From IMG/VR virus record IMGVR_UViG_3300018046_000006, positions 1 through 27,313 of that record: a DNA stretch of 27,313 bases; one strand, given 5' to 3'. The notes below the pieces were generated by a model, which made no database searches, was not told the origin of the DNA, and saw only the letters and a program-made list of their open reading frames with translations. Positions 603 through 5,908 of the stretch are shown piece after piece. The stretch comes from a virus. The translations under genes were made by a program, and so were the position numbers. Positions within the stretch are counted from its first letter, which is position 1. Every line of letters begins with the position of its first letter.

Positions 603-2732
603 ATGGTAAGCGCACTGGAAGTGGCACTAGAGGCCACTAAACGGGGTTGGTACGTATTTCCACTCGCAGCCGGCACGAAGGTCCCGCCGAGCGGGTTCGA
701 TAAGCCAGAGGGGCGAGCGTCAAACGTCTCCACCGTGATCGAGCAGTGGGCGACCCAGTATCCGAACTGCAACTGGGCGCTTGCCGCTGGTAAATCGGGG
801 CTCGTCGTAATCGATGTCGACGTTAAAGACGGCGCCCCGGGTCTCGAATCGTGGAACAGGCTGGCTGAAGAATTTCCCGAACTTCCCCAGACTCTTTCTT
901 CCTTCACGCCCTCGGGCGGCTGGCACTTCTATTACACGGGGCAAGCCCCAAACTCCGCGGGCACAAGATTAGGTCCCGGCATCGATGTCAGATCCAAGGG
1001 CGGCTACGTAGTTCTCCCTGATGGTCAGATCGTAGGGGGTAAGAACCCGGGGTTTTACTTTTGGAGAAGTAATTGCCCACTCGATCCGCGGGAGATCCCT
1101 GCAGGAGTTCTCGAGCGCCTCGGCCGGCCGCGCGAGCGCGACCCACTACACGACATCCCACTCTGCGATCTCGATGACCCGGACTCGATCGAGCGCGCTA
1201 TCCACATTGCCAAAACCTGCTCGACAGATCTCACCGGCTTTAACGTCGGCTGCCTGCTGCGCGACGCCGGCCTTTCTGAAGATATGGCTCTCGAGGTTTT
1301 CATGGAACACCACGCGCCCAGGTGCAAGGAACCATGGCCTATAGAGAACGCGCAAAAGAAGATTGAAAACGCTTACACGTACGCCAAGGACCGGATAGGC
1401 AATAGCTCACCGGTGCTTGTGCGGAACTCATTTGAAGACATGACCGCCGACCAGGCGCCCCCACTCCCGGAAGATCCCAATGCGCCGGCGGTCGTAATTC
1501 CGGTCTGCCGGGCATCGGAGATTGATCCTACGACCATCCCGGTACGAGATTGGGTACTGGGAAGGAGGTATCTTCGGGACTTTGTTACGGTGCTCATTGC
1601 TCCTGGCGGCCAGGGTAAATCGACTATGGTGCTCGCAGACGCCGCGGCAATAGCCTCCGGGCGACCGATTACCGGCGATGCGGTCTACCACCAGGGGAAA
1701 GTCTGGTATTACAACACTGAGGATCCCCAGGATGAGCTTGATCGGCGCGTCACCGCGATGGCGATACTGCACAAGCTGACCAAGGAAGATCTTTCAAACC
1801 TCTTCACGACTTCCGGGCGAACTCATCCTCTCATTCTTGTCAAAGACACTAAAGACGGCATCCGTCGAAACGAAAAAGCAATCCAGGCAATCATCGAGAT
1901 AATCAAGCGTGAGGGCATAATCCTTTTTATAGTCGACCCGTTTGTGCGCCTCCACAATGTGAATGAAAACGATAACATGGCAATCGATGCGGTCATGCAG
2001 GTCCTAGCCAGGATTGCAGCGGAGACCGGGTGCGCCATTGCCGTGGTCCACCATACCAAAAAGCTCGGGAAGACCAGCGGCGCCGGCGACATGGATACCG
2101 CCCGCGGGGCGTCTTCCATGATGTTTGCCGCCCGGATTGCCCATACCCTTACCACGATGACCGATGCCGAAGCGACGACTTTCCGCGTGGATCTGGATCG
2201 GGCTAAGTGGCATGTGCGCCTGGACGATGCGAAGGCAAATCTCTCGCCTCCGGGGGCTAATACCAGGTGGTTTGAACGCGTCTCGGTCAAGATACCCAAC
2301 GGGGACCAGGTGGGCGCCATCAAGGTTGTATCCTTCCCGGACGCCCCCGCCGTACAAGTGGAAAAATCACTCGATCTAGTCCAGATGGTATTCCAGGTTT
2401 GGACTCAGCCTATCACCTGCTACGACATGGCGTCGCTTATCAAGAAGCACTTCTCCGATGAATACGGGGAGTGGACACAACGAAGGCTCAACGACAGGAT
2501 TATCGAGCTTTTTAAAGGGGTGGTGCGCGAGCACAACGGAGAAGTTCTTACCGCCAGATGGGGTGACGGGAAGAAGGGAAAAGCGCGGATCTTAGTGCGG
2601 GAAGCAGAAGCTACGGAACAACGGGAAGCTACGGTCGGAGCTTCGGAGCTTGAAGCTACGGAACAACGGGAAGTTACGGTCGGAGTTTCGAAGCTAGGGG
2701 CAAAAATCGAGGTTGACGAAGATGAATTCTAA
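603..2732 (+). CDS. Primase-polymerase / replicative helicase fusion
   Basis: A 709-residue replication protein that should prime and unwind phage DNA. The N-terminal third is an archaeo-eukaryotic PriPol domain: the acidic DVD pair at residues 71-73, SGGWHFYY with His108, and GIDVRSKGGY with Asp128 are its three catalytic motifs. The C-terminal half is a RepA/DnaB-type RecA-fold ATPase, with Walker A GGQGKST at 335-341 (Lys339), Walker B FIVDP with Asp445, a VVHHTKK motif and a TARGASSM segment. The ATG at 603 follows AAGGAGG; an in-frame TTG at 585 would place this Shine-Dalgarno inside the gene, so 603 is preferred. Residues 669-698 are two copies of a 15-residue repeat (EATEQRE...SEL / EATEQRE...SKL), part of a DNA repeat array that continues past the stop. 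No separate DNA polymerase gene is visible. Confidence 0.9.
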   Translation: MVSALEVALEATKRGWYVFPLAAGTKVPPSGFDKPEGRASNVSTVIEQWATQYPNCNWALAAGKSGLVVIDVDVKDGAPGLESWNRLAEEFPELPQTLSSFTPSGGWHFYYTGQAPNSAGTRLGPGIDVRSKGGYVVLPDGQIVGGKNPGFYFWRSNCPLDPREIPAGVLERLGRPRERDPLHDIPLCDLDDPDSIERAIHIAKTCSTDLTGFNVGCLLRDAGLSEDMALEVFMEHHAPRCKEPWPIENAQKKIENAYTYAKDRIGNSSPVLVRNSFEDMTADQAPPLPEDPNAPAVVIPVCRASEIDPTTIPVRDWVLGRRYLRDFVTVLIAPGGQGKSTMVLADAAAIASGRPITGDAVYHQGKVWYYNTEDPQDELDRRVTAMAILHKLTKEDLSNLFTTSGRTHPLILVKDTKDGIRRNEKAIQAIIEIIKREGIILFIVDPFVRLHNVNENDNMAIDAVMQVLARIAAETGCAIAVVHHTKKLGKTSGAGDMDTARGASSMMFAARIAHTLTTMTDAEATTFRVDLDRAKWHVRLDDAKANLSPPGANTRWFERVSVKIPNGDQVGAIKVVSFPDAPAVQVEKSLDLVQMVFQVWTQPITCYDMASLIKKHFSDEYGEWTQRRLNDRIIELFKGVVREHNGEVLTARWGDGKKGKARILVREAEATEQREATVGASELEATEQREVTVGVSKLGAKIEVDEDEF

Positions 2733-2854
2733 TTTTGCGAAGCTCCGAGAAGCTCCGAAAAAACGACCGCTGCTTGTAAGTGATGAGAATCACTCGGTAA
2801 AAGGTGAAGCTACGGAGCTCGGAGCTTCAATGGCGTTTCGGAGCTCGGAGCTTC
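2607..2854 (+). repeat. Two-orientation GAAGCT(A/C)CGR repeat array (main part)
   Basis: Direct copies of GAAGCTACGG or GAAGCTCCGA start at 2607, 2625, 2652, 2670 (one mismatch), 2739, 2749 and 2806. Reverse-complement copies (GGAGCTTC type) lie at 2637, 2645 (one mismatch), 2682 (one mismatch), 2821 and 2847. The first four direct copies sit in a 45-bp unit repeated twice (2607-2651, 2652-2696) that encodes the 15-residue repeat at the primase C-terminus. Two 10-bp units are in perfect tandem at 2739-2758, and a 16-bp unit, CGGAGCTCGGAGCTTC, occurs at 2813-2828 and 2839-2854. The array crosses the primase stop codon without change, so the DNA rather than the protein appears to be what is conserved. 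An iteron-type origin is the leading reading; a simple expanding repeat is the alternative. Confidence 0.8.
2779..2794. other. Inverted repeat AGTGAT-N4-ATCACT
   Basis: A perfect 6-bp inverted repeat with a GAGA spacer, inside the repeat-rich non-coding gap after the primase gene. It could be an operator half-site pair or a small hairpin. A related ATCACTGAAG stretch occurs at 2871-2880. Confidence 0.5.
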
Positions 2855-2876
2855 CTCGTAAGTTACTGAAATCACT

Positions 2877-2936
2877 GAAGCTCCGAAGCTACGGAAGCTA
2901 CGCCCTACTACGTAGGGTAGCGACGCTTCGTCGCTT
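2877..2936 (+). repeat. Distal repeat cluster with two palindromes
   Basis: Three further GAAGCT(C/A)C units stand head to tail at 2877, 2885 and 2894. They are followed at once by the inverted repeat CCCTAC-TAC-GTAGGG (2903-2917) and a perfect 7-bp hairpin, AGCGACG-CTT-CGTCGCT (2919-2935). No T-run follows, so it is not a typical intrinsic terminator. Iteron-like units beside palindromes are common in replication origins, which is inference here. A 77-codon frame across 2713-2946 is built entirely from these repeats and I do not regard it as a gene. Confidence 0.65.
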
Positions 2937-3118: not shown

Positions 3119-3598
3119 GTGATTCTGGGGCTGGACATGGCAACGAAAACAGGATGGTGCTTCGTGGACGACCGCGGCCAGGTGGTTGAATCCGGCGTCC
3201 AGGATTTCACGAAGAAGCGGGGTGAGGGAAACGGTCTTTTGTTCCTGCGTTTCCGGAAATGGCTTAACGAACTGACGCGATGCCTGGTGCGCGGCAAGAA
3301 GGTGCGTCTCATTGCGTACGAGCAAGCCCACCACCGGGGAGGCGCAGCCACAGTGCTTTGTGTAGGCCTTGAGACGCGCGCCCAGGAGCAGGCCGCAAAG
3401 CTGGGGATCGAGTCAGCCCCGGTGATGGCGAACAGACTCAAGCATTTTGCAACGGGTAAAGGGAGAGCGCGGAAGGGGGAGATGATCGAGGCAGCCGCCA
3501 GGATCCTGGGGCGTGCTCCGGTCGATGACAACGAGGCCGACGCGGTGCATGTGGCGCGGTGGGCCTATAAAGAGTTCTACGAGGAGGAGGAGTGGTAG
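3119..3598 (+). CDS. RuvC-like Holliday junction resolvase
   Basis: A 159-residue RNase H-fold nuclease expected to cut four-way or branched DNA during phage replication and before packaging. The motifs are in order: LGLD at 3-6 (Asp6), an acidic residue after the hydrophobic strand in IAYEQ (Glu68), and the C-terminal DDNEADAVHVA block (Asp137, Asp141), which matches the metal-binding set of RuvC and its phage relatives. The length is typical. The start is GTG at 3119, with GGAGGTGA about six bases upstream inside the preceding small gene. It belongs to the early operon after the primase-helicase. Strict RuvC versus a phage RuvC-like resolvase cannot be settled by eye. Confidence 0.85.
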   Translation: MILGLDMATKTGWCFVDDRGQVVESGVQDFTKKRGEGNGLLFLRFRKWLNELTRCLVRGKKVRLIAYEQAHHRGGAATVLCVGLETRAQEQAAKLGIESAPVMANRLKHFATGKGRARKGEMIEAAARILGRAPVDDNEADAVHVARWAYKEFYEEEEW

Positions 3599-5862: not shown

Positions 5863-5906
5863 GCTCATGTGCCGCTCATGTGCCGCTCATGTGCCGCTCA
5901 TGTGCC
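5863..5906 (+). repeat. Four perfect 11-bp tandem repeats (GCTCATGTGCC)
   Basis: Units start at 5863, 5874, 5885 and 5896 without a mismatch. Each is nearly palindromic (GCWCATGWGC). The array ends two bases before the -35 box of the promoter at 5909. An 11-bp period places each unit on the same face of the helix, as in arrays bound by head-to-tail activators or by OmpR/PhoB-type regulators. A role as operator or activator site for the late promoter is inferred. Confidence 0.9.
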
Positions 5907-5908
5907 GG

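Follow-up and report, generated by a model that had tools for sequence, protein, structure and literature searches.

The window, the whole stretch of DNA that we analysed (27,313 nucleotides), comes from a 27.3-kb virus record whose contig may be incomplete. Its structural module is podovirus-like. Our interest lies in one gene and in the DNA that follows it (Table 1). The protein encoded by this gene comprises, in this order, an AEP primase-polymerase, a RecA-fold hexameric helicase, a C-terminal winged-helix-like domain, and a disordered tail. The helicase matches RepA of RSF1010 (1g8y) in phmmer (2.9e-22), and the same protein ranks first in Foldseek; we call the window protein PrimPol-RepA. 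Proteins that join an AEP primase to a RepA-family helicase and a winged-helix domain are already known (PMC5862659). The C-terminal domain matched no Pfam family. In the AlphaFold2 model, the C-terminus has helices at residues 581-599, 606-621, and 626-640 and strands at residues 649-653 and 661-665. The winged helix is predicted at a pLDDT of only about 60, and residues 641-709 have values of about 30-44, as expected for a disordered segment.

Table 1. Genes, repeat clusters, and palindromic elements around the putative origin (positions in the window).
Feature	Position	Strand	Evidence or content
Repressor-like and small HTH genes upstream of the initiator	2-325; 359-568	-; +	
PrimPol-RepA initiator, 709 aa	603..2732	+	Pfam Prim-Pol 3.5e-29, AAA_25 2.1e-38
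Candidate iteron cluster I	2607..2700	+	in CDS; 45-bp unit twice; 5 + and 3 - sites
45-bp unit, two copies in frame	2607-2695		copies 93% identical
Acidic C-terminal tip of the initiator	2715-2732		VDEDEF
AT-rich gap spanning the stop codon	2701..2738	.	GC 0.34
Stop codon of the initiator gene	2730-2732		
Candidate iteron cluster II	2739..2758	+	GAAGCTCCGA twice in tandem, 10 bp apart
AT-richer gap	2759..2805	.	GC 0.43; contains the hairpin at 2779-2794
Hairpin AGTGAT-GAGA-ATCACT	2779-2794		sequence; in gap 2759..2805
Candidate iteron cluster III	2806..2854	.	one + site, three - sites
AT-rich gap	2855..2876	.	GC 0.36
Candidate iteron cluster IV	2877..2903	+	three + sites, spacing 8-9 bp
Palindrome CCCTACTACGTAGGG	2903..2917	.	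sequence
Hairpin AGCGACG-CTT-CGTCGCT (AGCGACGCTTCGTCGCT)	2919..2935	.	
RuvC-like Holliday junction resolvase	3119..3598	+	PHROG 159 3.2e-15

The end of the initiator gene and the DNA behind it carry an array of copies of a single short word. The initial annotation had described many copies in both orientations, a 45-bp unit present twice in frame, palindromes, and a continuation of the array past the stop codon, and our counts bear out each of these. The contig contains 11 exact matches to GAAGCTMCGR, every one of them within 2607-2894, against 0.32 expected from shuffles (11 were reached in 0 of 100 shuffles). When up to two mismatches are allowed, there are 18 non-overlapping sites at 2607-2937, 11 on the + strand and 7 on the - strand, where the remaining contig leads one to expect 1.3 per 440 bp. 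No other stretch of the contig is as rich in repeats as the array (152, with 59 for the runner-up). Its 8-mer pair score is 151 for the whole region (shuffle maximum 15), and the noncoding part alone scores 56 (shuffle mean 1.7, maximum 11). The copies had also been thought to fill about 330 bp. This extent holds, at 2607-2937, but the filling is not even: copies are grouped in four GC-rich clusters (GC 0.56-0.60) separated by AT-richer gaps.

Many short copies of one word, clustered at the 3' end of a PrimPol-RepA gene, are what one expects of an iteron origin. So are gaps that are AT-rich relative to the genome (GC 0.58), even if this AT-richness is modest: of 90 further 600-bp stretches in the contig, 10 contain an equally AT-rich 40-mer. 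Cluster I encodes residues 669-699, within the predicted disordered tail, and the array would extend into the gene because this last segment encodes a tail that tolerates it. The array could adopt a branched fold (z -4.65), which is explained by its inverted repeats. Rfam and tRNA scans gave no match, and no intrinsic terminator was found in the array.

We searched for relatives with an alignment of the helicase domain of the window and its Rhizobium phage counterpart as the query, and obtained 66 loci from viruses and a single Rhizobiaceae MAG. The primase used as a single-protein query against viral and genome contigs returned no relatives, and a DNA-level search against phage records returned no match. 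At 80% non-redundancy, 33 loci were left, usually of about 10 kb; the window is one of them, and a few are annotated phages. In 20 of these 33 loci, or in 19 when counted with non-overlapping bins (1.5 expected), repeat content over the whole locus peaks directly 3' of the stop codon of this gene. Stricter clustering gave 14 of 25, 11 of 21 (55% clusters; 1.04 expected, p 1.6e-10), and 9 of 15. About 13 of the 33 lack a top-ranked array right after the stop; these include L126, L127, and L128, whose helicases are 43-48% identical to that of the window. Displaced arrays, about +1.3 kb away and with words of the L129 kind, are found in L133 (ACCGTGCA) and L166 (ATCCGTGC).

Seven further PrimPol loci or clusters were fetched in a later scan, once the hypothesis had been formed, and four of them agree with it. 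In L193, L194, and L250, which encode Prim-Pol with AAA_25, the peak repeat stretch lies right after the stop and consists of a different word in each. The fourth, L198, encodes a PrimPol with a DUF5906-type helicase and also has a post-stop array, with a TTTGCTCCAA-like word, so the arrangement may extend past RepA-type helicases. A post-stop array was not seen in L200, in the cluster of L195-L197, or in that of L209 and L229. The post-stop array is common in the PrimPol-RepA class and is not universal. The initial annotation had specified beforehand that related primases without repeats of any sequence at this place would speak against an origin; we found arrays there far above chance.

The word itself changes from lineage to lineage: it is AAACGCCGG in L125, GGTGGAGCA in L188 and L148, TTGCATCGGT in L131, TCCCCCAGTT in L176, and TAACCGTGCA in L129. 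Nearly all arrays have copies in both orientations, and the spacing of neighbours on the same strand peaks at 8-11 bp, about one helical turn. Leaving aside the window and L125, the words of the family resemble one another beyond shuffles. We also asked whether the words of the window and of L125 could be variants of TGCNCCAGT, the family word, and rejected this, the similarity not being significant.

L125, with 50% identity overall and 63% in the helicase, is the closest relative of the window, and there too the initiator is followed by the array and then by a RuvC-like resolvase (ORF 6478-6987 of L125). Its array has about 19 AAACGCCGG-like copies and starts inside the tail of the gene, where it encodes ETPETP, and its word is unrelated to that of the window. 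The initiators of the window (VDEDEF), of L176 and L179 (EADDVPF), and of L125 (LGEF) have acidic C-terminal tips ending in Phe, and we assume that these resemble the partner-recruiting tips of the SSB type or the T7 gp2.5 type. A change of GC skew at the array, proposed as a sign of an origin, is seen in the window (from 0.03 to 0.18) and in L125 (from 0.00 to 0.14), a rise of 0.14 in each contig. Among the other relatives, L135 also has a clear rise and L184 a fall, while most have a flat skew. We discarded GC skew as general evidence for an origin given this inconsistency, and count it as weak support because most relatives lack the rise.

Words and C-termini of the initiators co-vary. In a set of 20 loci, with each close cluster represented once, word similarity tracks C-terminal identity after control for helicase identity (partial r 0.35, partial Mantel p = 0.0005); the converse, word similarity against helicase identity with the C-terminus held constant, gives -0.06. 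For instance, L188 and L136, with 95% identity in the helicase and 48% in the C-terminus, have 4 of 9 word positions in common, whereas L188 and L148, at 91% and 60%, have 9 of 9 in common. The C-terminal domain of L188 models as a winged helix (domain pLDDT about 88), and most of its matches among PDB chains are winged-helix proteins (best Z 6.2, for a common fold). In the C-terminus of the window, helices and strands follow one another as in L188, at low confidence. These comparisons support, without proving, the idea that the C-terminus reads the repeat word. The co-variation could partly stem from recombination moving the gene end and the array together. Natural pairs with near-identical helicases and differing C-termini and words are usable for domain swaps of origin specificity.

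Taken as a whole, the sequences make it likely that 2607-2937 is an iteron-type replication origin in which the TCGGAGCTTC copies are recognised by the C-terminal domain of the PrimPol-RepA encoded just upstream. The initial annotation had proposed an origin here, and the proposal gains from the conserved post-stop position with changing words and from the co-variation of word and C-terminal domain. The rival named at the time was a proliferating simple repeat. Such a repeat would have no function, a short word having been amplified by slippage and unequal exchange in a permissive gene tail and the adjacent intergenic DNA. Duplication clearly built the array, as the 45-bp in-frame unit and the tandem 8-10 bp copies attest, and the window word does occur as a coding repeat elsewhere: three same-strand copies are present in 37 other viral contigs, and in 36 of these the copies share a single strand and phase, as repeats of the EAP/EAT coding type. 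Simple sequence repeats use one strand, have a uniform period, and show no link to gene function. The window array instead uses both strands, is unevenly spaced, is tied to an initiator family, and is noncoding over more than half of its length, and a search of IMG/VR for other mixed-orientation arrays of its word found none. Moreover, slippage predicts neither different words at the same place nor words that track the C-terminal domain, which makes this explanation improbable.

Slightly less probable still is an operator or other regulatory region, with many sites at which a phage repressor would bind or the initiator would regulate itself, and no start of replication. Initiators often autoregulate through their own iterons, and there are repressor-like and small HTH genes upstream of PrimPol-RepA. 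However, the array sits after the initiator gene and not after a promoter, a search within it revealed no sigma-70-like promoter, and its word co-varies with the C-terminal domain of the initiator itself. A regulatory role could be a secondary function of the array. Least probable is a cis element other than a start site, such as an initiator-bound copy-number or partition site comparable to crr of P4, a replicon with two separate iteron regions in which the role of crr differs from that of ori. Against it, we found only one such array in a 27-kb contig that may be incomplete.

We compared the putative origin with several known systems. SaPI Rep is an AAA+ (MCM/Cch-like) helicase; the window protein is not of this kind, its helicase being a RecA-fold AAA_25/RepA one joined to an AEP PrimPol, and it is carried by a tailed phage instead of a satellite island. 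The likeness lies in the arrangement of the initiator and its origin. In SaPI Rep, the C-terminal domain recognises iterons directly downstream of its own gene (PMC7581432), and in PICI origins two iteron sets flank an AT-rich region (PMC6092414). The window likewise has short iteron-like words directly 3' of an initiator-helicase gene, an AT-rich gap between sets, and a helicase C-terminal domain that would be the binding module, as predicted from the co-variation of the word. The origin of pRN1 lies directly downstream of its PrimPol-helicase gene and has a stem-loop and no iterons (PMC4234260). Its ORF904 protein resembles ours in joining PrimPol, helicase, and C-terminal winged helix with an origin just 3' of the gene, one whose sequence is not conserved among relatives; it differs in having an SF3 helicase and a single 100-nt stem-loop origin instead of a RepA-type helicase and clustered repeats.

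The oriV system of RSF1010 (IncQ) shares with the window a RepA-type hexameric helicase and an AEP primase, and its iterons and hairpin priming sites would have counterparts there. There, however, the functions are split among three proteins (RepA, RepB', and RepC) without a fused winged helix, RepC binds the iterons, and these are 20 bp long and in one orientation, whereas the window has 10-bp words in both. Among the subset of window proteins that we scanned, no RepC-like protein was matched. In P4, one protein, alpha, primes, unwinds, and binds the origin by its C-terminal domain, and the iterons are in both orientations. It differs from the window protein in its Toprim-type primase and SF3 helicase, and its iterons form two regions (ori and crr).

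In an origin of this type, the TCGGAGCTTC copies would be the binding sites of the initiator. They are roughly 10 bp long, occur in both orientations, and often form tandem pairs with a spacing of about one helical turn. Several PrimPol-RepA molecules would occupy the clusters through their C-terminal winged-helix domains, and an AT-rich gap would then open. The RepA-type helicase ring would load at the opened gap, and the PrimPol domain would prime the exposed strand, perhaps at neighbouring hairpins. We infer all of these steps: binding, melting, helicase loading, and priming.

Hairpins of the CCCCTTTAGGGG type are present in the arrays of nine relatives (L129, L131, L148, L164, L174, L175, L184, L185, and L188), and the iterons there differ. 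The pattern has 16 overlapping matches in 42 kb of post-stop DNA, not all of them independent because some loci are closely related, against 2 in 633 kb elsewhere, and both of the latter fall in the displaced array of L166. The window has no CCCCTTTAGGGG hairpin; its palindrome CCCTACTACGTAGGG may be the counterpart. By analogy with RSF1010, we guess that the CCCCTTTAGGGG hairpin serves in priming.

We lean, by a little, towards a more general proposal: that these loci form a large, as yet undescribed class of single-protein phage replicons, in which the initiator has the PrimPol-RepA-winged-helix architecture and its gene carries a bidirectional iteron origin at the 3' end. Initiator and origin would co-evolve rapidly, near-identical helicases would use different words chosen by their C-termini, and the CCCCTTTAGGGG hairpin would be a priming or loading site in many members. 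In the literature that we searched, which covered few subscription journals, no paper described phage PrimPol-RepA genes with iteron origins at their 3' ends. Phage initiators in which a PrimPol is fused to a RepA-type helicase are widespread, and for this class the results provide candidates for both the origin and the recognition code. PrimPol-RepA replicons could be minimal single-protein replication systems.

We also tried to reach relatives of the window through its terminase. The 80 loci obtained (L002-L081, 58-75% identity) share the structural module only, and neither the initiator nor the word array is found in any of them. Structural and replication modules thus appear to be exchanged independently, because the retrieved DNA of the terminase relatives lacks the replication module of the window. 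The second most repeat-rich stretch of the contig, at 5863-5907, is a perfect 11-bp tandem repeat (GCTCATGTGCC, 4.1 copies) in the gap preceding the endolysin gene. An unrelated phage, L109, has a 16-bp array (GAAGCTACGAAGCGTA, 1566-1660) that begins at a stop codon.
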